From Bacteroidaceae bacterium (GTDB lineage: Bacteria; Bacteroidota; Bacteroidia; Bacteroidales; Bacteroidaceae): a stretch of DNA of 64,000 nt. Made by a program: the position numbers and the translations under genes. The stretch lies in contig JAGAQH010000024.1 in assembly GCA_017622815.1 (NCBI GenBank), positions 96,385-160,384 of the forward strand, read 5' to 3'. This document shows, piece by piece, positions 6,479 to 45,304 of this stretch. Position 1 is the stretch's first letter. Each line of letters starts with the position of its first letter. The notes below the pieces were generated by a model, which had not been told where the DNA came from, did no database searches, and saw nothing but the letters and a program-made list of their open reading frames with translations.

Positions 6479-8458
6479 ATGGCTAATAATAACAACAAGA
6501 AACAAAGGCCCTCGTTCAGTTTCACATGGATATATATGATTATCCTGGCTGTTTTGGGCTATCTGTTCATTACGGGCGATGGAGAGTCGCTCAAACCTTC
6601 CTCCACTAAGGAGGTAAGTTATACGGAATTCCAGAATTGTGTCCGCAAGGGCTACGGCAAGGAACTCGTGGCCAACAAGGATAAGGGTACTGCCGTTCTG
6701 CAGTTGCTCCCCGAACACTATCGCGATGTCTTTCCCGGCTCCAGTGATTTCAAGGGGCAGAAACCTTCCGTAGTAACCCAGTATCCCAGTTCGGACAAAC
6801 TGGACGAGTTCATAGAGGCCGAGCGTGCCAACGGCAACTTCAGCGGCGACGTGCGCTACGAGCACGAGGTGGACTCCCCCTGGTGGGGCTTCCTCATCAA
6901 CATAGGCCCCATGCTTCTGCTGGTATTCTTCTGGATATTCATAATGCGCCGCATGAGCGGTGGCGGTTCTTCCAACAGCGATGGTGGCGGCGGTCCCATG
7001 GGTATCTTCAATGTGGGCAAGAGCCGTGCACGCCTGATAGAGAAGGACGATGCCAAGGTGACGTTCAAGGACGTTGCCGGTCAGGAGGGTGCAAAGCAGG
7101 AGGTTCAGGAGATAGTGGACTTCCTGAAGAATCCGGCCAAGTACACCGAACTGGGCGGCAAGATACCCAAGGGCGCCCTGCTTGTAGGCCCTCCGGGAAC
7201 GGGTAAGACCCTGCTTGCCAAGGCTGTGGCCGGCGAGGCCGATGTGCCCTTCTTCTCCATGAGCGGTTCGGATTTCGTGGAGATGTTCGTTGGCGTTGGC
7301 GCCAGCCGTGTCCGCGACCTCTTCCGCAAGGCCAAGGAGAAGAGCCCTTGCATCATCTTCATTGACGAGATTGATGCCGTGGGACGTGCCCGTAGCCGCA
7401 ACATCAGCACGGGCGGCAACGACGAGCGCGAGAACACGCTGAACCAGTTGCTCACCGAGATGGATGGTTTCGGCACCAACAGCGGTGTCATCATCCTGGC
7501 CGCCACCAACCGTGCCGACATTCTGGACAAGGCCCTGTTGCGTGCAGGACGTTTTGACCGCCAGATACATGTGGACCTTCCCGACGTGAACGAGCGCCGT
7601 GCCATCTTCGAGGTGCATCTGCGCCCCATAAAGAAGGCCGACGACCTCGACCTTGATTTCCTTTCCCGCCAGACACCCGGTTTCTCCGGTGCCGACATTG
7701 CCAATGTCTGCAACGAGGCCGCCTTGATAGCAGCTCGTCACGGACAGAGTTCTGTGGGCAAGGATAACTTCCTTGCCGCCGTGGATCGTATCATCGGCGG
7801 TCTGGAGAAGAAGACCAAGGTGATGACCGTGGAGGAGAAGCGCACCATTGCCCTGCACGAGGCTGGTCATGCCACCGTAAGTTGGCACCTGCAATATGCC
7901 AACCCTCTGGTGAAGGTTACCATAGTGCCCCGTGGACGTGCCCTGGGTGCTGCATGGTATCTGCCTGAAGAACGACAGATTACCACCAAGGAACAGATGC
8001 TGGACGAGATGTGTGCCACCCTGGGCGGACGTGCTGCCGAGGAACTCTTCACCGGCCATATCTCTTCCGGAGCCATGAACGATCTGGAACGCGTCACCAA
8101 GCAGGCATACGGCATGATTGCCTATATGGGTATGAGCGATAAGTTGCCCAATCTCTGCTATTACAACAACGACGAGTACCAGTTCCAGCGCCCCTATAGC
8201 GAGGATACCGCACGCCAGATAGATGCCGAGGTGCAGCGCATGATAGCCGAGCAGTATGCCCGTGCCAAGGCTCTCCTTGCCGAGAAGAGCGAAGGTCATG
8301 CCCAACTGGCGCAGATCCTGCAGGAGCGTGAGGTTATCTTTGCCGAGGACGTGGAGAACATCTTTGGCAAGCGCCCTTGGGCCAGCCGCACCGAGGAACT
8401 CCTGGAGAGTGAACCGCCTGCTGCTGACCAGCCTGCATCCTCTGAGCAGTCTGTTTAA
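6479..8458 (+). CDS. ftsH: ATP-dependent zinc metalloprotease FtsH
   Basis: This 659-residue membrane-anchored AAA+ protease degrades membrane and regulatory proteins. Two N-terminal membrane segments (about 17-33 and 135-158) flank a periplasmic region. Walker A is GPPGTGKT (237-244), Walker B is CIIFIDEID (about 292-300), and the second region of homology ([18 protein letters not shown]) follows. The zinc site HEAGH is at 460-464. A short Ser/Pro/Glu-rich tail ends the protein. It is the second gene of rsfS-ftsH-cdsA, an order I recall as common in Bacteroidetes. All catalytic motifs are intact. Confidence 0.97.
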
Positions 8459-8535: not shown

Positions 8536-9402
8536 GTGAAGAATCTTGTCCTACGTACTATTACAGGTGCTGCATTCGTGGCAGTATTGGTGGCTTCCAT
8601 TGTCTACAGCCCCTTCACTTTCGGCGCACTCTTTGCCGCAGTTTCAGCACTGTCCACTCTGGAATTCTGCCGGATTGTCAACAAGCAGGAAGGTGTCCGC
8701 ACCAATCCCTTTATATGCGTGCTCTCCAGCATACTGCTGTACTTTGCATTCTTTGCATACAGTTGCGGCTATGCCAATGCCATGCTCATTATTCCGTCAT
8801 CGGTGTTCCTGCCCTATCTGGTCACCATTGCATACCTGCTGGTCAGCCACCTCTATTCTGAGAGGCAAAGTGCACTTGCATCGTGGGCTTACACCATGAT
8901 GTCCCAGGTGTATGTGGCTCTGCCCTTTGCCCTGCTAAATTGCGTGGCCTTTGTTCCATATCCCATGGGTCCGTTGGGCACGGCCTATGTCTACATGTAT
9001 CCCCTGGCAGTGTTCCTGTTCCTTTGGAGCAGTGACACCGGTGCATATTGCGTTGGTTCTCTTCTGGGCAAGAAGATTCCCTATCGCCTGTTCCCCAGCA
9101 TTTCTCCCAACAAGTCATGGATAGGCAGTATAGGCGGAACCCTGCTTGCCGTGGGAGTGGGCGCAATCATATCGCGTTACGAGCCCTCTCTCACCCTTCT
9201 GCAGTGGATGGGCTTCGGCCTTGTTGTTGCCGTGTTCGGTACATGGGGCGACCTCGTAGAGAGCCAGATTAAGCGTCAACTTGGCATCAAGGACAGTGGC
9301 AATGTGCTTCCCGGTCACGGTGGCTTCCTGGACAGGTTCGACAGCAGCCTGCTTGCCATACCGGCTTCTTTGGTCTACATCTGTACCATTTGGGGCATGT
9401 GA
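8536..9402 (+). CDS. cdsA: Phosphatidate cytidylyltransferase CdsA
   Basis: This 288-residue multi-pass inner-membrane enzyme makes CDP-diacylglycerol from CTP and phosphatidate, the precursor of the major phospholipids. The C-terminal signature is complete (SQIKRQLGIKDSGNVLPGHG, then GFLDRFDS, about 246-273). The start appears to be GTG at 8536 (MKNLVLRTITGAAF). No in-frame ATG suits the family N-terminus. It follows ftsH by 77 nt and ends the operon before a strong terminator. Confidence 0.94.
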   Translation: MKNLVLRTITGAAFVAVLVASIVYSPFTFGALFAAVSALSTLEFCRIVNKQEGVRTNPFICVLSSILLYFAFFAYSCGYANAMLIIPSSVFLPYLVTIAYLLVSHLYSERQSALASWAYTMMSQVYVALPFALLNCVAFVPYPMGPLGTAYVYMYPLAVFLFLWSSDTGAYCVGSLLGKKIPYRLFPSISPNKSWIGSIGGTLLAVGVGAIISRYEPSLTLLQWMGFGLVVAVFGTWGDLVESQIKRQLGIKDSGNVLPGHGGFLDRFDSSLLAIPASLVYICTIWGM

Positions 9403-9435
9403 CTATATATATATAAATAAGGTATATGCAACATA

Positions 9436-9467
9436 TCGGGCTTGGAAGGCGTGACTTCCAAGCCCGA
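9436..9467 (+). terminator. Rho-independent terminator of the rsfS-ftsH-cdsA operon
   Basis: A perfect 13-bp stem (TCGGGCTTGGAAG / CTTCCAAGCCCGA) with a 6-nt loop is followed by TGCTTTT. Confidence 0.8.
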
Positions 9468-9578
9468 TGCTTTTAGGCGTCTTCCGTGGCAACAGACTCC
9501 TCCGTTGCCTCGCGACACCTCACCCTAACTTAGTGCCAGATAGAATTTGCCGGACACCAATAATTCTGTCGTCACGAG

Positions 9579-9670
9579 GCCCCTGTTTTGTTGTCCTGGG
9601 TGACTCGCCCTTGTTGTCCCAGGTGACTCGTTCTTGTTGTCCTGGACGACTCGTCCCTGTCGTCGTGAGG
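9579..9670 (+). repeat. Four tandem 23-bp units between convergent genes
   Basis: Units start at 9579, 9602, 9625 and 9648, each about 23 bp, with a core like GACTCGYYCTTGTTGTCCYRG. There are no spacers. A second array of the same family is at 45806-45898. The rest of the 9403-9764 gap holds only the two terminators and no convincing gene. Confidence 0.75.
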
Positions 9671-9709
9671 CCATTTTTTTGCCTATGCCGGGGTAATGGC
9701 ATAAAGAAA

Positions 9710-9742
9710 GCGGAGTCATCTGCCTCCGACAGATGACTCCGC
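9710..9742 (-). terminator. Terminator of the DUF349 gene
   Basis: A 13-bp perfect stem (GCGGAGTCATCTG / CAGATGACTCCGC) has a 7-nt loop. On the minus strand it is followed by TTTCTTT. Confidence 0.75.
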
Positions 9743-9764
9743 ATGCCTTTCTATAGTAATACCT

Positions 9765-11459
9765 TTATTTTTCCTCTTTCATCTTCTGCGCCATGATGGC
9801 AAGTTCGGCCTTGAGAGCCTCCACCTTCTTCTGCATCTGGTCTACCAGAGAGTTGCCCTTCTTGGATGAGGCGGTGAGGAAACCGATATTGTTCTCGTAG
9901 GTGCGGATTTCAGCCTGCAACTGTTCGTAGATACGCTGCATGCGCTGGCGGTCGCCACCTGCAACCTCCTGTATCTTCTGGAAGCGTCCGGCAGTACGTG
10001 CCTGGATGCGTGCACCGCGTGCACGGTCGTAGAGTTGGTCGCACACCTGGCGGTATTGGGTGTATGCCTGGTCCTTCTCCTTGAAGGGAACGTGGCCCAC
10101 GGCATTCCACTTGGCCTGCAACTCCTTTACTGCATCCAGATTTACTTCGCCTTCGCCCTCGAGCAGAGCCTGCAGTTGTGCGGTAATCTCCTGCTTCTGG
10201 CGGAGGTTCTGCTTCTGCTGGTCGCGCTCGCCGCTATTGGCCTGCTTCTTGGCGTCGAAGAAGGTGTCGCATGCGGTGGTGAATTCCTTCCAGAGCTGGT
10301 CGCTGTACTTGCGGGGTACGGGACCAGTGGCCTTCCATTCCTTCTGCAGGGCCACCAGAGCGTCTGTTGTGGCACGCCAGTCGGTGCTGGTGCTCAGTTC
10401 CTGAGCCTTGGCAACGAGGGCCTTTTTCTTTTCCAGGTTCTCTGCCTGGCCGTCCTTGATGTTCTTGTAGAATTCAGCCTTGCGTGTGAAGAAGTGGTCG
10501 CAGGTCTGGCGGAAGCGCTCGAAGATGGCGGTGTTCTGCTTCTGTGGAGCAAAGCCTATGGTACGCCATTGTGCCTGGAGTTCCAGAACCTGCTTGGTGA
10601 GGGCGTCCCATTCTATCTTCTTGCCCTCGGCCTCGGTCTGGCTCAGCAGTGCTTCTGCCTGCTCGCACAGAGCGGTCTTCTTCTCCAGATTCTCTGCCTC
10701 GCGTGCCTTGATGCCCTCGAAGTGAGCCTGATGGCGCTTGTTTATCTCGGTGGATGCGTTCTTGAAACGTGCCCACAGTTCTTCGCGCAGGTCACGCTCC
10801 ACGGGACCTGTCTCCTTCCACTGCTGGTGCAGGGCCTGCAACTGTCCGAAGGCGCTGATGACGTCCTCCACGGCAAGCAGTGCTTCTGCCTTTTCGCACA
10901 GGTCGGTCTTAATCTCCAGGTTCTTGCGGAAGTCATAGTCGCGCATCTCGTGGCCCAACTTCAGCAGGTCATAGTATTGCTCGGTGTAGAGTTGGTAGTT
11001 CTTCCAAATCTCCGTGCTCTGCTCGGCAGGAACGGCACCGATTTCCTTCCATGCCTGTTGCAACTGCTTGAACTGGTCGAAGTTTGCGCCCACCTCCTCG
11101 GGAGTGGTGGTCAGTTGCTGAATCTGTTCCAGGATGGCGGTCTTGCGCTGGAGGTTTTCTGCACGTTCTTCCTGAAGGCGCAGTTGCTCTGCGGCACGGC
11201 GTTCGCGTATGGCCTGCATGGCCTGGCGGAAGGTCTCTTCCTGAGGATCCATTACGGGAACATAGGTTGCGGGGTCGCCACCCTGTTCGATGTACTCTTG
11301 GCGTGCCTGCTGGAGCGCCTGGTTGTGATAACGGTAGAAGAGTTGCTTGAGTTGTTCCACATCGGCCTTTTCGGGGATGAGTTCTGCCTGTGCCAGTTCC
11401 TGTGCACGAGCCACAACCTCTTCTTTAGTGTTGAGTTGTATGTTTCCTATATTTTCCAT
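9765..11459 (-). CDS. DUF349 repeat protein
   Basis: This 564-residue, highly charged, almost entirely helical protein is built from several DUF349 units of roughly 70-80 residues. Each contains a W..IG.VP-type motif (for example WKEIGAVPAEQSTEIWKNY and WKATGPVPRKYSDQLWKEF) and ends in a basic stretch before the next EN(L)EKK helix. The C-terminal 60 residues look like a coiled coil. No signal peptide or membrane segment is present, so it is probably cytoplasmic. The molecular function of DUF349 in Bacteroidetes is not known to me. The ATG at 11459 (MENIGNIQLN) is the natural start. It is monocistronic with its own terminator. Confidence 0.9.
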   Translation of the reverse strand: MENIGNIQLNTKEEVVARAQELAQAELIPEKADVEQLKQLFYRYHNQALQQARQEYIEQGGDPATYVPVMDPQEETFRQAMQAIRERRAAEQLRLQEERAENLQRKTAILEQIQQLTTTPEEVGANFDQFKQLQQAWKEIGAVPAEQSTEIWKNYQLYTEQYYDLLKLGHEMRDYDFRKNLEIKTDLCEKAEALLAVEDVISAFGQLQALHQQWKETGPVERDLREELWARFKNASTEINKRHQAHFEGIKAREAENLEKKTALCEQAEALLSQTEAEGKKIEWDALTKQVLELQAQWRTIGFAPQKQNTAIFERFRQTCDHFFTRKAEFYKNIKDGQAENLEKKKALVAKAQELSTSTDWRATTDALVALQKEWKATGPVPRKYSDQLWKEFTTACDTFFDAKKQANSGERDQQKQNLRQKQEITAQLQALLEGEGEVNLDAVKELQAKWNAVGHVPFKEKDQAYTQYRQVCDQLYDRARGARIQARTAGRFQKIQEVAGGDRQRMQRIYEQLQAEIRTYENNIGFLTASSKKGNSLVDQMQKKVEALKAELAIMAQKMKEEK

Positions 11460-23804: not shown

Positions 23805-24170
23805 ATGACCAAGAAGCCTCGCAATTTTAGGGAATATCAAGTGTGGCAGGACGCAGTGGCATTCTCCACTCTCGTATATAAGCAAACGAGTGAAATGCCT
23901 TGGTTTGAGAAGAAAGGTATTTGTGACCAAATACAACGCGCAGTCGTATCTATCGCCTCAAATATTGCCGAAGGATCAGCAAGACCATCTGATGCAGAAT
24001 TCGCCCATTTCCTGGATATAGCGTTAGGCTCTGCCTATGAAGTAGAAACACAGCTCCTCATGTCCCATAAAATAGGATATATAGATGCAGAAAACTATGA
24101 ATCCTTAAATCAGAAAACAATCTCAATAGAGCGCCAAATAACAGGCTTAATAAAAACGATAAGAAAGTAG
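23805..24170 (+). CDS. Four-helix-bundle protein 1 (S23/IVS family)
   Basis: This 121-residue all-helical protein has the family hallmarks: REYQVWQDAVAF, ICDQIQRAVVSIASNIAEGS (about 45-64) and a C-terminal LNQKTISIERQITGLIK. The family was first seen in 23S rRNA intervening sequences and resembles the Avd accessory protein of diversity-generating retroelements, but no reverse transcriptase is here. It is out of place functionally in a glycan locus. AT-rich words precede it and CGTCAT/CGTTAT hexamers follow. CGAAAACAAT overlaps its ATG and recurs inverted at 24228-24237. Cellular function unknown. Confidence 0.85.
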   Translation: MTKKPRNFREYQVWQDAVAFSTLVYKQTSEMPWFEKKGICDQIQRAVVSIASNIAEGSARPSDAEFAHFLDIALGSAYEVETQLLMSHKIGYIDAENYESLNQKTISIERQITGLIKTIRK

Positions 24171-34673: not shown

Positions 34674-35051
34674 ATGAGTGGGCAGTATTTTACATATCGT
34701 GATTTACGAGTATATCAACATGCGAAGGATTATGTGGTATTTGTATACTCATTGATTAAGCAATTCCCTAAGGAGGAGAATTATGCATTATGTGACCAAC
34801 TGAGAAGAGCCAGTGTATCAATATCGTCCAACATAGTGGAAGGTATGTCGCGAACTTCAACTAAAGAACAAATGCATTTTATTGAAATATCATATGGTTC
34901 ATTATGTGAAACCATGTGCCAATTAGAAATTGCGTATGAACTGCACTTCATTAATGATGAACAATTACACGAAGCAGAGGATCGTACAACCGCTATTGCT
35001 CAAATGTTGTCTGGCTTAAAGAATAAACGTACTCAAACCTCTCACCTCTAA
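34674..35051 (+). CDS. Four-helix-bundle protein 2 (S23/IVS family)
   Basis: This 125-residue paralogue of the 23805 gene has the same hallmarks: RDLRVYQHAKDYVVFVYSLI, LCDQLRRASVSISSNIVEGM (about 41-60) and AEDRTTAIAQMLSGLK. Its last codons (TSHL and the stop) run into a repeat array. The gene is bracketed by heptamer arrays in opposite orientation and sits between two GT4 genes. Function unknown. No reverse transcriptase or rRNA is nearby, so neither retroelement Avd nor rRNA-intron roles apply directly. Confidence 0.85.
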   Translation: MSGQYFTYRDLRVYQHAKDYVVFVYSLIKQFPKEENYALCDQLRRASVSISSNIVEGMSRTSTKEQMHFIEISYGSLCETMCQLEIAYELHFINDEQLHEAEDRTTAIAQMLSGLKNKRTQTSHL

Positions 35052-36427: not shown

Positions 36428-36599
36428 GAGGATAAGGAGAATAAGGAATTTAAGGAGCGAGTAGAAGATTAAGGAAATTAAGGAGATTAAGGAGATTAAG
36501 GAGCTATAGGGGGAGGGGCGTATGGTTCCCAGTGCTCATAAAACTCATAGTGCTCCTAAAACTTCCTCATCATAAACCCGTAAAAATGCATTGCAAGAC
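36428..36599. repeat. Purine-rich GAGATTAAG-type array between GT4 genes
   Basis: GATTAAGGA-like words of about 9 nt recur from 36430 to 36505 (for example ATTAAGGAG three times near 36477-36503). No gene is seen. Confidence 0.6.
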
Positions 36600-37709
36600 A
36601 TGAAGATACTTCAAGTGGGTAAATTCTATCCCATCAGGGGAGGTGTGGAGAAGGTCATGTATGACCTGACCTTGGGGCTTTCTGCTCGTGGGGTGGAGTG
36701 CGACATGCTTTGTGCTGCCTTCAATAAGAAGGGTTTTACACGGCAGTTGAATGAGAAGGGCAGACTGATCGTTGCAGATGCCATGATGAAACTGGCGGCA
36801 ACGATGATATCGCCTGCCATGATATGGAAGATGCGCAGGATTGCTGCGGAATACGATATAGTACATATACACCATCCGGACCCAATGGCAGCATTGGCTT
36901 TGTTCTGCTCCGGCTTTAAGGGGAAGGTGGTTCTGCACTGGCACAGTGATATACTGAAGCAGAAGACTCTATTGAAGTTCTATAAGCCTCTGCAGAAGTG
37001 GTTGCTGAAGAGAGCAGATGTCATTGTGGGCACAACTCCTGTGTACGTGAAGGAGTCACCCTTCCTGCAGGATTGTCAGCACAAGATAACACATTTGCCA
37101 ATAGGTATACATCCAATGCCGGAGGCACAGGAGGAGGCACAGGAATTGCGTAGACAATATCCAGGCAAGAAGATAGTCTTCTCCCTGGGCAGACTGGTGC
37201 CATACAAGGGATTCTGCTATTTAGTGGAGGCGGCAAAGCATTTGAGCGATGACTATGTACTGCTTATAGGCGGTACCGGACCATTAAAGGAGGAACTGCA
37301 GAGCCAGATAGAGGCTCTGGGATTGGAGAAGAAAGTCTGGCTGCTTGGCTATGTTCCGGATGAGGCTTTGCCCGCGTATTTCTGTGCATGCGACCTGTTC
37401 TGCCTGTCTTCGGTGATGAAGACAGAGGCTTTTGGAATTGTACAGATAGAGGCGATGTCGCTGGGCAAGCCTGTTGTCGCTACGCGTATTCCGCAAAGCG
37501 GAGTATCGTGGGTGAATGCCCACGGGGAGTCGGGGCGGAATGTCACTCCTTGCTGTGCCGAGGAATTGGCAGATGCTATTGTCGACATCACACATGACGA
37601 GAAAACCTATCGTGCTTATTGCGACGGAGCAAGACTGCGCTGGCAGAACTACTTTACTCTGGACAAGATGATAGACGATGTAATGAGTATATATAATAGA
37701 GTATTATGA
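36600..37709 (+). CDS. GT4 glycosyltransferase
   Basis: This 369-residue GT-B enzyme has MKILQVGKFYPIRGGVEKVM (acceptor-side GGVE loop), IVHIHHPDPMAALAL, VLHWHSDILKQ, the donor-site VFSLGRLVPYKGFCYLVEAA (about 190-209), and SVMKTEAFGIVQIEAMSLGK (about 275-294). I prefer ATG 36600 over an upstream TTG. Its stop overlaps the next ATG (ATGA), so the phosphoglycosyl transferase is coupled to it. Confidence 0.92.
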   Translation: MKILQVGKFYPIRGGVEKVMYDLTLGLSARGVECDMLCAAFNKKGFTRQLNEKGRLIVADAMMKLAATMISPAMIWKMRRIAAEYDIVHIHHPDPMAALALFCSGFKGKVVLHWHSDILKQKTLLKFYKPLQKWLLKRADVIVGTTPVYVKESPFLQDCQHKITHLPIGIHPMPEAQEEAQELRRQYPGKKIVFSLGRLVPYKGFCYLVEAAKHLSDDYVLLIGGTGPLKEELQSQIEALGLEKKVWLLGYVPDEALPAYFCACDLFCLSSVMKTEAFGIVQIEAMSLGKPVVATRIPQSGVSWVNAHGESGRNVTPCCAEELADAIVDITHDEKTYRAYCDGARLRWQNYFTLDKMIDDVMSIYNRVL

Positions 37710-38392: not shown

Positions 38393-38659
38393 ATGAGGCT
38401 GAAGGAAGGTTTGCGACTTCGCAAGATGGGACGCAAGTACATGATAGTAAATGCCGGCAACAGTTTGCACAACAGGGCTGAGGTTTTTACCCTGAACGAA
38501 GTGGCAGCGCAGATGTGGCAATTCCTGGATGGAAAGGACTTCACGGCAGAGGTTCTGGTGGAATGGTTATGCCAGGAATATGACGTGGAAGAAGATGTTG
38601 CCCGCATGGATGTGGAGAAACAGTTGGAAGAGTGGAAACGGTTCGGACTGATTCAATAG
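38393..38659 (+). CDS. PqqD-family protein
   Basis: This 88-residue protein has the PqqD winged-helix-like pattern: VFTLNEVAAQMWQFLDG (about 31-47), then EVLVEWLCQEYDV and DVEKQLEEWKRFGLIQ. PqqD proteins act as peptide chaperones (RiPP recognition elements). A PqqD relative next to a nucleotidyltransferase and an HprK-like kinase in an exopolysaccharide locus recalls the proteobacterial HPr-rel-A gene set. No precursor peptide is visible nearby. It starts 12 nt after the phosphoglycosyl transferase and overlaps the next gene. Confidence 0.85.
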   Translation: MRLKEGLRLRKMGRKYMIVNAGNSLHNRAEVFTLNEVAAQMWQFLDGKDFTAEVLVEWLCQEYDVEEDVARMDVEKQLEEWKRFGLIQ

Positions 38660-39747
38660 AAGAGACATTTAGAATACAGGCTTTCTTTGCCTTGTTGCGT
38701 GCCGGTCTGTGGGAAGCAGAGAAGGAGGTCGCAGACTTCCGTGAACTGGATGTCACAGAGTGGGATGACATCTATGCCATGGCACGCCAGCAGACAGTAC
38801 GTGGGCTGGTGTATGCTGGAATATGCATGTTGCCTGACGAACTTATGCCCGCCGACTCCCAACTGATGCGTTGGGCCGCTGCTGTGGAGGGAGTGGAACA
38901 GCGCAACCGCCACATGAACAGAGTTCTGGGCAAGGTTTGCCTTTGGTTTGAGTCCCAAGGCTTGAGTCCGGTAGTGATGAAGGGGCAGGGAGTGGCGCAG
39001 TGCTATGAACAACCTTTACAGAGGGAATGTGGCGACATAGACCTGTATTTTGCCAGTGCAGAGGAGAATGCCGAGGCATGCAGGCTCCTTAAAGAAAAGG
39101 GAGTTTCTGTCAGTATGCATGCAGATGGCAGTTACTCGTATGTGGTGGACGGCGTGTCGGTGGAGCACCATCGGCAACTTGTCGACCTTACTGCGTCTTC
39201 CGCATGTGCCGCCATACGACAGTTGGAGGGGAAATGCGGCTTTCCAAAGGTGGAGGCTGCTGCCAGTGGAGAGAAGTCGATTCGTATACCATCGCCTACG
39301 GAAGATGTTATTTTGCAGAATGCACATATCCTGAAGCATGCTCTTGGATGGGGTGTGGGATTGCGCCAACTTTGTGATGTGGCCCGTCTCTGCCACAGGA
39401 GAAAAGAAGAAGTAAACGGCAAGGAAGTGGAGGAGGTGTGCCGCTTGGCCGGCATAACAGACTGGACCAGCCTGTTGCACTCTTTCCTGATTGACTATAT
39501 GGGAATGCCGGAAGCATCGCTGCCGTTTGCTACCAGGCACATATCGTCAGAACCATTGCTTCATCGTATATTGAGGGGAGGGAACTTCGGCCAGCACAGA
39601 AAGGATATGGACAAGGCGGCCTCGGGACCTTTGAAGCGAAAGATACATACGGCATGCTCGTTTGCACAGAATGCGGCATTTGCTCTCAGATATGCTCCAG
39701 GAGAAGGGGCACGGACTTTCTGGACTCTGTTGAGGGGACAGTTCTGA
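38632..39747 (+). CDS. Nucleotidyltransferase family protein (PF14907-like)
   Basis: This 371-residue protein contains VVMKGQGVAQCY (about 114-125) and GDIDLYF (134-140), the Lys-Gly and paired Asp features of the uncharacterised nucleotidyltransferase family common beside PqqD/HprK-like genes. Asp135 and Asp137 should bind metal. A helical C-terminal part follows. The start is probably GTG 38632, overlapping the PqqD stop by 28 nt, but is uncertain. The substrate (protein, glycan or lipid) is unknown. Confidence 0.75.
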   Translation: METVRTDSIEETFRIQAFFALLRAGLWEAEKEVADFRELDVTEWDDIYAMARQQTVRGLVYAGICMLPDELMPADSQLMRWAAAVEGVEQRNRHMNRVLGKVCLWFESQGLSPVVMKGQGVAQCYEQPLQRECGDIDLYFASAEENAEACRLLKEKGVSVSMHADGSYSYVVDGVSVEHHRQLVDLTASSACAAIRQLEGKCGFPKVEAAASGEKSIRIPSPTEDVILQNAHILKHALGWGVGLRQLCDVARLCHRRKEEVNGKEVEEVCRLAGITDWTSLLHSFLIDYMGMPEASLPFATRHISSEPLLHRILRGGNFGQHRKDMDKAASGPLKRKIHTACSFAQNAAFALRYAPGEGARTFWTLLRGQF

Positions 39748-39748
39748 A

Positions 39749-40669
39749 ATGTTTGGTTCCAAGTGGTGTTGTAATGTGATGATGAGAGAACATTTATTCA
39801 AGGTTGCCGGCTTCGTCTTCGGTATTACCTTACCAATGGACAAGGAGGTGGAACAACTGTTGCCTTCCTTTTTGCCTTTCCGCTATAAACAGGACGGGAG
39901 CACAAAATTGCTGTTCTCGTTGAACGTCACATCGGATATCCTGGCCGACGAGGATTCATCGTGTGTGGTGGAACAAACTGAGAACGACATGGGACAGACC
40001 ATACTGAAGCGTACTTCTTTCGGCTATCGTCTGGAACTTAGGTACAAGGACAATGCCCCGATGCATGCAATTCATGCTGACCCTAATTTTACTGAGGTCA
40101 AGGCCAATGTTTGCTGGGATGATGTGTATGCCGGTTCGGCTTTGTGTTCATTGATCCGTATCGCATACTCTCAGGCAATACTTAGCCATAAGGCTGTATC
40201 TGTGCATGCTTCAGCAGTGGTGTGGCAGGGCAAGGCCTTTCTGTTCATGGGCAAGAGTGGTACTGGCAAGAGCACCCATTCTGCCTTGTGGCGGGAATGT
40301 TTCCAGGGATGTGAACTCTTGAACGATGACAATCCCACGTTGCGTATAGAGGATGACATTGTTGTGGCGTACGGTACTCCATGGAGCGGCAAGACCCCCT
40401 GCTATCGTAATGCCGCGTTTCCTGTAGCCGGCATAGTGCGCCTGAGACAAGCCAAGGAAAACCGTTACTATCCTCAGGAAGATGTGGCTGCTTTCACGGC
40501 ATTGGTGCCAGGATGCTTTGCCATACATTCCGATACCATATTATATAATACACTTTGCGACAATCTGGTGGATATTGCCGAGCGCGTCCATGTTGGATTG
40601 TTGGCATGTCTGCCAGACCATGATGCGGCACGCCTTTGTGCCTGTAGCGTGGCGGGATTTAATGAATAA
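39749..40669 (+). CDS. HprK-like serine kinase-related protein
   Basis: This 306-residue protein has a C-terminal half resembling the HPr kinase/phosphorylase catalytic domain: VSVHASAV (His153), the P-loop GKSGTGKS (168-175) and ELLNDDNPTL (about 189-198, the acidic pair seen in HprK). The long N-terminal part is unrelated to HprK. No HPr gene is present, and this type of kinase in RiPP or exopolysaccharide clusters probably phosphorylates a different target. It directly follows the nucleotidyltransferase (1-nt gap). Confidence 0.8.
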   Translation: MFGSKWCCNVMMREHLFKVAGFVFGITLPMDKEVEQLLPSFLPFRYKQDGSTKLLFSLNVTSDILADEDSSCVVEQTENDMGQTILKRTSFGYRLELRYKDNAPMHAIHADPNFTEVKANVCWDDVYAGSALCSLIRIAYSQAILSHKAVSVHASAVVWQGKAFLFMGKSGTGKSTHSALWRECFQGCELLNDDNPTLRIEDDIVVAYGTPWSGKTPCYRNAAFPVAGIVRLRQAKENRYYPQEDVAAFTALVPGCFAIHSDTILYNTLCDNLVDIAERVHVGLLACLPDHDAARLCACSVAGFNE

Positions 40670-40697: not shown

Positions 40698-41495
40698 ATG
40701 AAAAAGAAACTGATTTTTATGAGTGGCCTTCTCTTGCTGCTCCTGGCTTCCTGCTCGTCAAGAAAGGACTTTGCCTACTTGCAGGACATGGAAATTGGCA
40801 AAGCCTATGATTACGATGCCCGCTATGAGGCAACCGTGCATGCCAATGACCGTCTTAAGATTACGGTTACATGTAAGAGGCCTGAATTGGCTATTCCTTT
40901 CAACATGTATGGCAGAAGCGTGAGTGTGGATCCCTCGGGAAATGTATCTACCAGTTCTTCCAATGACGAGAGCACACAGGGCTACCGTGTAGACGTGGAC
41001 GGAAACATAGATTTCCCCATCCTGGGCAAATTGCATGTGCAGGGACTGAAGGTAAGTGAGGTAACAAACGGCATCAGGGATCTCATTATCAAGGGCAACT
41101 ACATCAAGGACCCGCAGGTATCTTTGGAGTTCCTGAATTTCAAGTATACGGTATTGGGAGCCGTGGGAAGTGCCGGAACATACAGCGTGGAGGATGACCG
41201 TATCACTCTGCTTGATGCTATTGCCAAGGCTGGTGATTTGAGATCAAATGCCAAGGTGGATCACATAGCAGTAATACGCGAGGTGGACGGCAAGCGTCAG
41301 GTATATGTGCATGATATTCGTAGCAAGGACATCTTCACATCTCCCTGCTATTATCTGCAGCAGAACGATATCGTTTATGTAGAGCCTAAGTACCAGAGCA
41401 AGGATAGGGAAAGCCGTTTCTTCCAGATTGGTGCTTGGATAATAAGCCTTGCCAGCGTAGCAGCAACCATTGTAGCTGTAGTAACGAGAAAGTAG
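40698..41495 (+). CDS. Wza-like polysaccharide export lipoprotein
   Basis: This 265-residue protein has a lipoprotein signal peptide (MSGLLLLLLASC, lipidated Cys19). It continues with a polysaccharide export domain (ATVHANDRLKITV; GYRVDVDGNIDFPILGKLHV) and a SLBB-type segment (YTVLGAVGSAGTYSVEDDRI). A C-terminal membrane helix (IGAWIISLASVAATIVAVV) may form the outer-membrane part. It should form the outer-membrane export channel with the following Wzc-like kinase. ATG 40698 is chosen because it begins the signal peptide; upstream in-frame codons overlap the previous gene. Confidence 0.92.
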   Translation: MKKKLIFMSGLLLLLLASCSSRKDFAYLQDMEIGKAYDYDARYEATVHANDRLKITVTCKRPELAIPFNMYGRSVSVDPSGNVSTSSSNDESTQGYRVDVDGNIDFPILGKLHVQGLKVSEVTNGIRDLIIKGNYIKDPQVSLEFLNFKYTVLGAVGSAGTYSVEDDRITLLDAIAKAGDLRSNAKVDHIAVIREVDGKRQVYVHDIRSKDIFTSPCYYLQQNDIVYVEPKYQSKDRESRFFQIGAWIISLASVAATIVAVVTRK

Positions 41496-41547: not shown

Positions 41548-43923
41548 ATGAGCGAACCAAACAAGAACAATCAGGAGATTAACGTAAAAGACCTGTTCTT
41601 CTATCTCCTGTCCAAATGGCACTGGTTCCTGCTGTCCGTAATAGTATTCGGCAGTTTGGCTTGGTACAAGTATGCCAGCACGCCATTTGTGTATTTCCGT
41701 CAGGCCACGGTTATCATCAAGGACCCCTCCAACAAGACTTCTACGGCAGGTTTCGACCGCTACGAGAACCTTGTAAACAAGGTGAATGTGGCAAACGAGA
41801 TCCTGCAGTTCCGTTCCAAGAAACTGATGCAGGAAGTGGTGAAGCGTGTGCATGCCGATGTTAATTATAAGCATCAGGACGGACTGCGTGAAAACGAACT
41901 TTATGTGAAGTCTCCCGTGATGGTATCTTTCCCCGACATTACCCCCGAGGCTTATGTTTCTTTCAAGTTGCGTGTGGACAGTAAGGAAAAGGTTACCATA
42001 TCAGACTACGTTGGACGTGAGGGAGCCAAACCTCAGGCTATAGGCATGAATGATACGGTAACAGTGGACGGACATCGTATGGTGTTCTCGCCAACGGCCT
42101 ATTGCAATGATGAATGGATAGGCCAGGAGATAACTGTCACACGTCTGCCGCTGACCCATGTGGCAGCCTATTACCTCGCCAATCTGGGTATACGCCAGGA
42201 GGCAGACGAGGCATCTATCCTTACCATGTCGCTGAAGGACAGTTCGCCCGCCCGTGCCGAGGATGTGCTGAATATGCTCATCACGGTTTATAACGAGGCC
42301 GCTATCCGTGACAAGAACCAGGTGGCAGTAAACACGGCCAAGTTCATCAACGAGCGTCTGATAATCATCAGTCAGGAACTTGGCGGTGTTGAGAGTGAAT
42401 TGGAGACCTTTAAACGTGATAACCGTATTATGGATATTAGTTCTGCTGCCGGTTCGTATATGTCGGACGCCCAACAGTCTAATAGCCAGGTGTTGGAATT
42501 GGAAACTCAGATGCGTATGGCCCGTTATATCAAGGATTATCTGGAAGATCGGACCAAGAGCAATGACCTTATCCCCTCTAATACAGGTATCGGTAATGCC
42601 AGTGTTGAGGCACAAATCAGCCAGTATAACTCTATTAAACTGCGTCGTGATAAACTTATAGAAGACAGTAGCGACAGCAATCCTGTGGTGGAGGAACTTA
42701 ACGGTTCTTTACATGCAATGAGACAGAGTATTATCCGGGCTATCGATAACATGATAGTAAGCCTGAAGGTACGCCGTGACGATGCACTTAGTCGTGAGGT
42801 ACGTGCTCAGTCGCGTGTTTCAGCCATTCCCACCAAGGAACGTGAGATGCTTTCTATAGAGCGTCAGCAGAAGATCAAGGAATCCCTGTATCTGTTCCTG
42901 TTGAACCGTCGTGAAGAGAACGCCCTCACCCAGGCTATGGCCGACAACAATGCCCGTGTCATAGACGGTGCTTCCGGCAGCAACAGTCCTATCGCTCCAG
43001 ACAAGATGCGCATCCTGCTGCTTGGTATACTTGTGGGTCTGGTGGTTCCCGGAGTTATCTTCCTGTTCCGTCTCTTCACAGATACTTTCGTTCATAGCCG
43101 TCGCGACTTGAAGGGTGTCGTAAACGCTCCTTTCTTGGGCGAGATTCCTTATGACAAGGAGATTGCCAAGAAGAAGACGGGTATTGTCAGCAAGGATGGC
43201 AATGATATGGTTTCCGAGGCACTGCGTATCCTTCGTACCAACATGACATTCATGGGCAAGAAGGGACAGGTTCCCCAGGTAGTTACCTTCACCTCGTTCA
43301 ATGTTGGTGCCGGTAAGACATTCGTCTCACGCAATTTGGCCATGAGTTTTGCCTATGTGAAGAAGCGCGTACTCCTTGTTGATATGGATATCCGTAAGGG
43401 AACTCTGAGCCGCAACTTCGCTAAGCACGAGACGGGTCTGACCAACTACCTTTCTGATTCCACCATCGGCATAGATGATATTATCTATCCGTCCGGAGAC
43501 CATGAGAATCTGGACATCCTGCCTGCAGGTCCTATTGCTCCCAATCCTGCCGAATTGCTCATGGACGAGCGCCTGGACGATCTGATAAAGGAATTGCGTA
43601 GCCGTTACGACTACATTATCATAGACAATGTGCCTGTGGGTATCATTGCCGATGCTGCCATTGTCAATCGCATTGCCGACCTGACAATCTTTGTTGCACG
43701 TGCAGGCAAACTGGATCGTCGTCAGTTGCCAGAGATTGAGGCACTGTACCAGGAAAAGAGCCTCTCCAATATGGCAGTGGTATTGAACGGTGTGGATCCT
43801 AAACATCATGGATATGGCTACGGTTACGGTTACGGCTATGGCTACGGTTATGGCTATGGTTACGGTTATGGCTACGGCCACAAGAAGAAAAAGAAAAGCT
43901 TTTTTTCATTCCTGAAGAAGTGA
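41548..43923 (+). CDS. Wzc-like polysaccharide co-polymerase / tyrosine autokinase with Gly-Tyr tail
   Basis: This 791-residue protein has two membrane helices (about 25-43 and 490-512) flanking a long periplasmic coiled-coil Wzz domain. A cytoplasmic BY-kinase domain follows: Walker A SFNVGAGKT (583-591), Walker A' VLLVDMDIRKG, and a Walker B-type YDYIIIDNVP. The tail holds 11 consecutive Gly-Tyr pairs (755-776) and a Lys-rich end. It should control chain length and export with the Wza-like protein through tyrosine phosphorylation cycles. The tail is encoded by a degenerate 6-bp repeat. Confidence 0.94.
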   Translation: MSEPNKNNQEINVKDLFFYLLSKWHWFLLSVIVFGSLAWYKYASTPFVYFRQATVIIKDPSNKTSTAGFDRYENLVNKVNVANEILQFRSKKLMQEVVKRVHADVNYKHQDGLRENELYVKSPVMVSFPDITPEAYVSFKLRVDSKEKVTISDYVGREGAKPQAIGMNDTVTVDGHRMVFSPTAYCNDEWIGQEITVTRLPLTHVAAYYLANLGIRQEADEASILTMSLKDSSPARAEDVLNMLITVYNEAAIRDKNQVAVNTAKFINERLIIISQELGGVESELETFKRDNRIMDISSAAGSYMSDAQQSNSQVLELETQMRMARYIKDYLEDRTKSNDLIPSNTGIGNASVEAQISQYNSIKLRRDKLIEDSSDSNPVVEELNGSLHAMRQSIIRAIDNMIVSLKVRRDDALSREVRAQSRVSAIPTKEREMLSIERQQKIKESLYLFLLNRREENALTQAMADNNARVIDGASGSNSPIAPDKMRILLLGILVGLVVPGVIFLFRLFTDTFVHSRRDLKGVVNAPFLGEIPYDKEIAKKKTGIVSKDGNDMVSEALRILRTNMTFMGKKGQVPQVVTFTSFNVGAGKTFVSRNLAMSFAYVKKRVLLVDMDIRKGTLSRNFAKHETGLTNYLSDSTIGIDDIIYPSGDHENLDILPAGPIAPNPAELLMDERLDDLIKELRSRYDYIIIDNVPVGIIADAAIVNRIADLTIFVARAGKLDRRQLPEIEALYQEKSLSNMAVVLNGVDPKHHGYGYGYGYGYGYGYGYGYGYGYGHKKKKKSFFSFLKK
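43810..43878 (+). repeat. Coding 6-bp repeat (GGY-TAY)11 in the kinase tail
   Basis: Eleven GGN-TAY hexamers with mixed synonymous codons encode the Gly-Tyr tail. The mixture slows but does not prevent slippage. Confidence 0.85.
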
Positions 43924-44131: not shown

Positions 44132-45304
44132 ATGAAGACAAGAATGCTTTTGTTGGCTCTCCTCATGGGTACAGCCACAACAATCTTCGCCCAGACCTCT
44201 ACCGTAGAGGAAAGAGTGGAGTACAGCAGCGACAAGTACAAGGTGGAAACCAATGGTTTCTGGGATAACTGGTTCATCTCTCTGGGTGCCGGTCCTCAGG
44301 TGTTCTTCGGTGACCACGACAATCGTGCTCCTTTCGGTGACCGTATTGCACCTGCCGTGGATCTGGCAGTAGGTAAGTGGTTTACTCCCGTTGTCGGCTT
44401 CCGTGCCATGTACAGCGGTTTGCAGGTTAAGGGTGCTACCAAGTGGGAGAACAGCGGTTGGAGCAACTCTTATGGCACTGGTGAGGCTATTGGCGATCCC
44501 GCACATGGCTTGCAGGGCCAGAAGTTCTATATGGGCAACGTGCATGTAGATGCTTTGTTCAACCTCAACAACCTCTTTGCAGGTTACAACCCCAAGCGTG
44601 TATGGCACTGCAGTGTGTATGCCGGTCTGGGTTGGGCATGGGTTTATGACAAGAAGGCAGATGCCGGTGAGTTCGCCGCAAATCTGGGTGTCCTGAACAC
44701 CTTCCGTCTGTGTGATGCCCTTGACCTGAATGTTGACGTACGCGGTATGCTTGCCAAGGATGGTTTCGATGACGAAATCGGTGGTTGCACAGCCGAGGGT
44801 AATCTCTCTCTTACCGTAGGTCTGACCTACAAGTTCAAGCAGCGTGGCTGGAACCGTGCCAAGACTGTTTACCGCACCGACTACGGTCAGCTGGATGCTC
44901 TGCGCGAGCAGGTTAGCAAGCTGAGCGACGAGAACGAGCAGTTGAGAAAGCACAGATGTCCCGAGCCCGAGACCATCAAGGAGTTCGCTGCAGGCAATGT
45001 TTCTGTATTCTTCAACATCAACAGCAGCGTTATCGCATCCAAGAAGGATCTTGTTAACGTGAAGGAGATGGCAGAATATGCCAAGGCTAACGACAAGGTT
45101 ATGGTGGTTACCGGTTATGCTGACTCTAACACCGGTAGCGCAGAGTACAACCAGAAGCTTTCTGAAAAGCGTGCCAACGCCGTTGCCGAGCAGCTGGTTA
45201 AGATGGGTGTAGACCGCAACAAGATCGAGGTTGTTGCCAAGGGTGGTGTTGACGCTCTGTCTCCCATATCTTACAACCGTCGTGTTGTCGTAACAATGAA
45301 GTAA
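44132..45304 (+). CDS. OmpA-family outer-membrane protein
   Basis: This 390-residue protein has a signal peptide (MKTRMLLLALLMGTATTIFA), a beta-barrel-like region (about 40-245), and a short coiled coil (ALREQVSKLSDENEQLRKH, about 253-271). A C-terminal OmpA peptidoglycan-binding domain follows (VSVFFNINSSVIASKKDLVN; VTGYADSNTGSAEYNQKLSE; KRANAVAEQLVKMGV). It anchors the outer membrane to peptidoglycan. Codon use and strong promoter/terminator signals suggest high expression. It follows the capsule operon but is a separate unit. Confidence 0.93.
   Translation: MKTRMLLLALLMGTATTIFAQTSTVEERVEYSSDKYKVETNGFWDNWFISLGAGPQVFFGDHDNRAPFGDRIAPAVDLAVGKWFTPVVGFRAMYSGLQVKGATKWENSGWSNSYGTGEAIGDPAHGLQGQKFYMGNVHVDALFNLNNLFAGYNPKRVWHCSVYAGLGWAWVYDKKADAGEFAANLGVLNTFRLCDALDLNVDVRGMLAKDGFDDEIGGCTAEGNLSLTVGLTYKFKQRGWNRAKTVYRTDYGQLDALREQVSKLSDENEQLRKHRCPEPETIKEFAAGNVSVFFNINSSVIASKKDLVNVKEMAEYAKANDKVMVVTGYADSNTGSAEYNQKLSEKRANAVAEQLVKMGVDRNKIEVVAKGGVDALSPISYNRRVVVTMK

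Follow-up and report, generated by a model that had tools for sequence, protein, structure and literature searches.

We analysed a 64,000-nt stretch of DNA from a Bacteroidaceae bacterium (contig JAGAQH010000024.1; hereafter the window), in which three closely packed genes, encoding a PqqD-like protein, a nucleotidyltransferase (NT) and a kinase-like protein (K), lie between the gene for a phosphoglycosyl transferase (PGT) and those for Wza- and Wzc-like polysaccharide export proteins. With a probability of roughly 80%, this trio is the recognition and modification module of a ribosomally synthesized and post-translationally modified peptide (RiPP) pathway that resembles the pathway of the linear polyphosphorylated peptides (LPPs) and sits within a capsule or exopolysaccharide export operon. 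The evidence comes from sequence: gene content and order, conserved residues, the predicted folds of K and NT, a family of precursor peptides and the co-occurrence of these peptides with K.

Genomes, loci and contigs are labelled G, L and C with a number, G000 being the window's own genome. For gene kinds we use B (PqqD, the discrete RiPP recognition element, RRE), N (NT, the PF14907 nucleotidyltransferase), K (kinase), A (precursor), S (S26, the signal peptidase) and D (the ATP-binding cassette, ABC, exporter). The trio is encoded as follows.

38393..38659, + strand: PqqD-like discrete RRE (B), the predicted binding partner of the precursor's YxxP leader; PF05402, 58.5 bits (cut-off 23.4)
38632..39747, + strand: NT, nucleotidyltransferase-fold protein (N), whose predicted substrate is the phosphorylated peptide; PF14907, 131.1 bits (cut-off 31.2)
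39749..40669, + strand: K, kinase of the phosphoenolpyruvate carboxykinase (PEPCK)/HprK fold, capsule-type clade

These coordinates confirm the trio where the first-pass annotation had placed it, between PGT and the Wza/Wzc pair. The PqqD and NT genes overlap by 28 nt, and K starts at 39749, with a single base between it and the NT stop.

Precursor peptides accompany the kinase

Loci were collected by a profile scan of contigs with an NT alignment, and the best 80 of 132 were kept by likeness to the window NT, which favours close relatives; families within them were recognised with custom profiles. By title, 77 of the 80 are Bacteroidales or Bacteroidia, the rest being Sphingobacterium sp. CZ-2 and metagenome-assembled genomes titled Rickettsiales and Roseburia, and some come from genomes that are also in our genome samples (e.g., L179 and G004). 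PqqD adjoins NT in 65 of the 80 loci. K lies directly 3' of NT in 31 of the 62 loci that have 3.6 kb of downstream DNA, and Wza is found within 3.5 kb in all 31 of these compared to 10 of the 31 others. In six loci (L184, L188, L189, L191, L192 and L194), PqqD-NT precedes Wza with neither K nor precursor. This reduced form is also seen in L067-L071. Outside Bacteroidales, L206 (Sphingobacterium sp. CZ-2) holds PqqD-NT and a YxxP peptide (6823-6981 and 8699-9924).

Many loci encode a small peptide after wzc, of the form MK..YExPxTxxxxVELExGFMxASV.D...W. A capsule precursor profile trained on 9 loci and run on 5160 small open reading frames (ORFs) of the 71 other loci matched 20 of them, 16 after wzc in capsule blocks (one of which, in L178, is without YxxP) and 4 elsewhere (L202, L206, L212, L214). 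Among blocks with the required 3.5 kb after wzc, a precursor is present in 23/27 that bear K compared to 1/9 that were scored as K-less (Fisher 1.3e-4); leaving out the 9 training loci, the counts are 14/18 and 1/9 (p 0.0016). The nine K-less blocks include L180, in which K is frame-broken, L193, with K after wzc, and L210, with a weak K upstream. L180 is the single K-less match, and none of the strictly K-less blocks has a precursor (0/6). In L155, a second YxxP peptide (8687-8812) lies next to the usual one after wzc.

We also examined 295 genomes of the order, evenly drawn, and found K in 42, a precursor in 17 (12 families) and S26 in 36. K is present in 16 of the 17 precursor-bearing genomes (p 2.5e-14 in a test that ignores shared ancestry), G243 being the exception. 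When the four sequence donors (G000, G068, G079 and G319, the last being SW299) are removed, K is present in 12 of 13 precursor genomes compared to 38 of 291 overall (p 5.3e-11). Nearly all S26-bearing genomes have K (35/36), and S26 lies within 3 kb of K in 31.

In the window's own genome, the DNA pattern MKK..Y..P gave 22 matches compared to 3 in a reversed control. Seven of the 22, with one residue between MKK and Y, form a single family of 57-64 aa with invariant M1, K2, K3, Y5, P8, S24, W55 and W59. These seven peptides share a C-terminal (I/V)WxxxW and lie on contigs C9, C11 (two), C12, C18, C20 and C28 (L107-L113); the four that were tested gave no NCBIfam family. A profile of the seven finds at least one peptide in 59 of the 61 genomes of the genus (the own genome counted among them, its seven being the training set) and, among 40 genomes of other families, matches in G079 only. 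There, a short ORF of 40 aa starting MKKLYTSPEIEVVEVIEYGFAAS... lies directly 5' of K-S26-PqqD-NT-ABC. The peptides have a median length of 59 aa, and 69 of 85 carry a Trp within their last 15 residues. A pattern that fixes Ser at exactly 18 residues after Tyr proved too narrow, since the spacing varies.

The first-pass annotation had reported no recognisable precursor peptide. Relatives do carry one after wzc, and the own genome holds seven in trans. Its guess that a small protein is modified is supported.

Complete operons in relatives and dispersed genes in the window's genome

S26 was sought in 12 block-bearing genomes chosen from the 80 loci; it is present in single copy in 11, with none found in the L187 genome. 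In four genomes it stands at the end of the operon and is followed by an ABC exporter gene.

Bacteroides mediterraneensis (L151/L268): complete operon; PqqD seen in L151
Phocaeicola coprophilus DSM 18228 (L150/L269): complete operon; PqqD seen in L150, full-length ABC exporter checked
Bacteroides sp. Marseille-P3684 (L198/L270): complete operon; PqqD seen in L198
Bacteroidales bacterium SW299 (L271): complete operon; full-length ABC exporter checked

The gene order in these four genomes is PqqD-NT-K-Wza-Wzc-peptide-lipoprotein(-lipoprotein)-OmpA-S26-ABC. In other genomes S26 is unlinked, for example 1.2 Mb off in B. xylanisolvens XB1A. The S26 proteins score below the 51.85-bit cut-off of TIGR02228, archaeal-type signal peptidase I (34.4 bits for L053, 17.3 for L004), and S47, H86 and D101 are invariant in 8 sequences.

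The window retains PqqD, NT, K, Wza, Wzc and the OmpA protein. Its genome as a whole has 7 precursors, 1 S26, 2 K and 2 PqqD genes, the window PqqD being one of the two above the family cut-off. The second kinase (K2), on G000:C20, has 34% identity to K and is followed by S26 and then by the second PqqD. This C20 locus corresponds to L004 10141-11872, and loci of its type lie, in many same-genus genomes, between genes that we take to encode a DegP-like protease and DUF5103-like proteins. A secreted protein of about 150 aa encoded 5' of K2 ('pre2') was considered as a precursor and dropped, having no YxxP leader by eye. Around other kinases of the same genus (17 loci, L036-L052), K, S26 and PqqD occur together in 12 loci and S26 in 15, ORF picking having hidden K in some. 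K matches were obtained in 58/61 same-genus genomes (own included) and in 66/101 relatives. The C20 K2-S26-PqqD locus is probably the general maturation locus of the dispersed peptides. Because the precursors and S26 sit at other loci of its genome, the trio of the window most likely acts in trans.

Sequence and predicted folds of the kinase and the nucleotidyltransferase

K scores below every Pfam and NCBIfam cut-off, its best NCBIfam match being TIGR04352 (21.0 of 200 bits); TIGR00679 (HPr kinase/phosphorylase) gives 11.2 vs 240 bits and PF01293 17.3 vs 26.5 bits. It has the P-loop GKSGTGKST, and H153, K174, D193 and D194 are invariant in 13 sequences. Structure comparison places the predicted structure in the PEPCK/HprK-type fold. 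A profile search gave a weak match to HPr kinase 1ko7 (E 0.038), and no HPr kinase is among the best 50 structural matches listed for K, which excludes nothing. K shares its fold superfamily and P-loop with ATP-dependent PEPCK and HPr kinase/phosphorylase, yet by sequence it is not a member of either, and no HPr target is implied. The first-pass annotation had let its reading depend on a nucleotide-binding fold in the kinase-like protein and on co-occurrence of the trio with glycan export genes; both are borne out, by the predicted fold and by the Wza gene close to NT in all 31 loci with K.

In a tree of 62 kinases, drawn without support values, the window K groups with kinases of the capsule type, and K2 belongs with those linked to S26; one Wza-proximal kinase (L215) also falls into the S26-linked set.

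In NT, the motifs KG, GDxD, ExH and KHx6GLRQxCDxA are invariant in 7 sequences. Its structure model (predicted local distance difference test score, pLDDT, 84.0) matches nucleotidyltransferases and FKRP, and an NT profile run against PDB sequences returned nothing useful (best E 0.71). The own genome has two further NT genes, L080 (G000:C34) and L081 (G000:C23). One of these paralogues adjoins a WecG/TagA/CpsF glycosyltransferase gene, and the one on C23 adjoins genes for an ABC exporter and a LuxR-type regulator.

Comparison with known peptide systems

LPPs (lppA, K, B, S, D and N of Paenibacillus alginolyticus) are described mainly from Bacillota, in capsule loci, with a set comprising a discrete RRE, an HprK-like kinase, a nucleoside triphosphate (NTP) transferase, an archaeal-type signal peptidase I and an MsbA-like transporter; the precursor leader is YxxPxVLxHQxIxFETxxS, the kinase phosphorylates core Ser3 and the peptidase takes off the leader (PMC13381572). 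The window has a comparable discrete RRE (PF05402), an HprK-like kinase with the His-Lys-Asp-Asp set and a PEPCK-type fold, and a nucleotidyltransferase (PF14907, nucleotidyltransferase fold), which is likened to LppN by the NTP transferase label of the latter only. Further likenesses are the YxxP leader, a Ser about 18 residues on, the capsule loci and the presence of six gene kinds in one operon in four Bacteroidales genomes.

There are also differences. Genes for an archaeal-type signal peptidase I and an MsbA-like exporter were not found in the window cluster, whereas both are present in the operons of the four relatives. The hosts are Bacteroidota, and the peptide leaders are without HQxIxFET. 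Moreover, precursors lie beside surface-protein genes, the modification genes lie between PGT and Wza, and the own-genome precursors and peptidase are unlinked. Because the leader consensus and window-local S and D genes were not found, we call the pathway LPP-like, not LPP.

Lasso-peptide kinases carry the His-Lys-Asp-Asp set, and PsmN, annotated as a nucleotidyltransferase, is required for the hexose on the phosphoserine of pseudomycoidin, possibly with involvement of a host enzyme (PMC9266682). The paeninodin and pseudomycoidin pathways (PadeK, PsmK, PsmN) are therefore similar to ours in their HprK-like kinase with this residue set and their nucleotidyltransferase gene. They differ in that the peptidase here is S26 and the candidate phosphosite is internal, not a C-terminal Ser. 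A search of the own genome, 88% complete, for PF13471, which we take to be the lasso B2 leader peptidase family, gave 0 matches, and no macrolactam cyclase (Asn synthetase-like) was found among the operon proteins scanned.

We found no description of this gene set in Bacteroidota in the main texts of the open-licence literature searched. The main text of PMC13381572 does not contain 'bacteroid', and the available part of a RiPP survey of Bacteroidales (PMC10352776) contains none of 'nucleotidyl', 'HprK' and 'signal peptidase'. PMC12806405 gives counts of gut metagenome clusters that contain an RRE; the part available has neither 'kinase' nor 'capsul'. The trio had initially been put forward as an undescribed system. 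Its kind is in fact known (LPP/paeninodin RiPPs); what the literature searched did not yield is the Bacteroidota form. The system appears to be a Bacteroidota variant of a recently described kind of RiPP, whose capsule operon form and pairing with surface-protein genes were likewise not found there.

Proposed pathway and alternatives

The following scheme is an inference in its pairing of PqqD and K with the peptides, in the phosphorylation, cleavage and export steps, in the reaction of NT and in any physical link between peptide and glycan. PqqD, as an RRE, would bind the N-terminal YxxP leader of the small precursor and present it, and K would phosphorylate the conserved Ser about 19 residues after the leader Tyr. 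NT (PF14907, likened to PsmN/LppN) would then put a sugar or a nucleotide-derived group on the phosphoserine. The donor would probably come from the pool of the neighbouring glycan pathway, as suggested by NT adjoining PGT and by an NT paralogue adjoining the WecG/TagA/CpsF glycosyltransferase gene. S26 would cut off the leader, and the ABC exporter would send the product out.

Several observations weigh against this scheme. In the window, patterns and four profiles applied to 1272 small frames gave no convincing precursor, and no S26 or ABC exporter gene was found. (An ORF at 8938 on the minus strand was considered as a precursor and rejected; it reached 12.6 bits, E 0.0099, with 1 of the 4 profiles and is isolated, with no support from the other three.) Four of the 27 K-bearing blocks have no detected precursor, and the co-occurrence p values are computed without correction for genome kinship. 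That 77 of the 84 YxxP peptides have a Ser between Y+17 and Y+20 is partly circular, some of them having been picked by a Ser-requiring pattern. The second residue after Pro in the 84 motif peptides belongs to the published RRE set L/V/I/A/F/Y in 45 and is Thr in 30, which is a partial fit, and these peptides do not show the HQxIxFET stretch of the LPP leader. Finally, deletion of LppN caused no detectable change in a heterologous host (PMC13381572).

Among the alternatives, the one that survives best, though we consider it rather unlikely, is that PqqD-NT serves glycan synthesis (e.g., by moving a phospho-alcohol or glycosyl group), with K recruited beside it and no peptide product here in this species. 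The NT fold result makes this somewhat likelier and a peptide pathway slightly less so, and the six loci with PqqD-NT before Wza suggest that this pair may have a role without K and precursor. However, G040 and G043, counted as K-less, still carry K elsewhere as well as precursors, so that PqqD-NT could act in trans, and the complete operons favour a peptide role.

We give little credence to a second alternative, in which the substrate of the trio is a component of the export machinery (Wza, Wzc, PGT or the OmpA protein), the peptides being part of a separate pathway. Such a target would fit the position of the trio between PGT and Wza in many loci, the retention of PqqD-NT there in the same six loci and the window's lack of a local precursor. 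On the other hand, discrete PqqD-like proteins are a hallmark of leader-binding RREs (PMC7470986). The YxxP precursor after wzc in most K-bearing blocks, the operons completed by S26 and ABC in four genomes and the tracking of K by precursors over 295 genomes equally argue for the LPP-like pathway.

HPr-rel-A systems sit in exopolysaccharide gene neighbourhoods. Membership of the trio in such a system, known beside proteobacterial exopolysaccharide loci and earlier suggested by likeness, was rejected as very improbable: K and PqqD belong to the same broad families and match weakly, but both fall below the curated cut-offs (21.0 vs 200 bits for TIGR04352, 27.3 vs 35 bits for TIGR04353), the relatives' operon has a precursor, S26 and an ABC exporter, and the LPP/paeninodin set of RRE, HprK-like kinase, NTP transferase and signal peptidase is the better match, even if the two kinds of system may be distant kin.

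Precursors beside surface-protein genes

All seven own-genome precursors lie behind a same-strand gene for a secreted-looking protein of 277-1701 aa (with a signal-like start, by eye). Domains in or beside these proteins include BspA-type leucine-rich repeats, dockerin, InlB-type repeats, F5/8 type C and NAGLU; for some of the proteins no domain was found. The upstream protein ends in a tail of the form ...IYNLAGQRLxKxQKGINIVNGKKVLxK at 25 of the 26 assessable loci among 30 genus precursor loci (4 were not assessable), compared to 3 of 565 background ORFs, with a pattern that was written post hoc. The tail resembles a type IX secretion system (T9SS) type A sorting domain. TIGR04183 matches 1 of 6 proteins, weakly (15.0 vs 23 bits), and SprA_N is present in the own genome (652.6 bits). 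From the resemblance and the SprA_N match, the cargo tails may be assigned to T9SS. In other families, the peptide gene often precedes a lipoprotein-like gene by 11-47 nt or follows a cargo-like gene, and in capsule blocks it is often 5' of the gene for a lipoprotein of ~700-890 aa; four such lipoproteins were tested and gave no Pfam match.

One tentative and on balance unlikely idea is that the peptide forms the protein moiety of a glycoconjugate at the cell surface, with NT joining the RiPP phosphoserine to a sugar, phospho-alcohol or glycan of the same operon. The NT model resembles FKRP as well as plain nucleotidyltransferases, which may leave room for such peptide-glycan transfer. If this were true, peptide-tagged capsule chains would be shown beside the lipoprotein or T9SS-like cargo encoded next to each precursor, and the paired genes for peptides and surface proteins would serve Bacteroidales in anchoring, capping or recognising the polysaccharide that they make.

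With the LPP-like pathway, the logic of RRE, HprK-like kinase, nucleotidyltransferase and archaeal-type signal peptidase would extend to Bacteroidota, one of the major phyla of the gut, with precursors named. The ties of these precursors to capsule export and surface-protein genes hint that the cell surface may carry modified peptides. PMC13381572 states that the function of LPPs and paeninodins is unknown; full-set operons in named Bacteroides and Phocaeicola, together with the repeated occurrence of peptide genes next to surface-protein genes, make this question testable.

Neighbouring genes in the window

The genes flanking the trio are the following.

36591..37709, + strand: GT4-type glycosyltransferase, upstream gene of the conserved block; PF00534, 125.1 bits
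37706..38380, + strand: PGT, predicted glycan starter; PF02397, 195.6 bits
40698..41495, + strand: Wza-like outer membrane polysaccharide export lipoprotein; PF02563, 69.2 bits; MKKKL start at 40698
41548..43923, + strand: Wzc-like protein with (YG)n tail; PF13614, 52.3 bits, and PF13807, 47.8 bits; PF02706, 17.1 bits, below cut-off
44132..45304, + strand: OmpA-family outer membrane protein; PF00691, 60.3 bits

Of the 73 loci whose upstream DNA extends for 1.5 kb, 40 have PGT within 1.5 kb 5' of NT, and a similar glycosyltransferase gene is found 5' of PGT in many syntenic loci. A relative of the OmpA protein precedes S26 in the complete operons of relatives, and a profile of the window protein gives 330-346 bits beside S26 (L257, L259, L262, L265). 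Two short ORFs within the glycan cluster, at 23805-24170 and 34674-35051, presumably resemble S23/four-helix-bundle proteins. The C-terminus of Wzc (43800-43923) is a long (YG)n run followed by lysines, like the tails on Wzc in syntenic loci.

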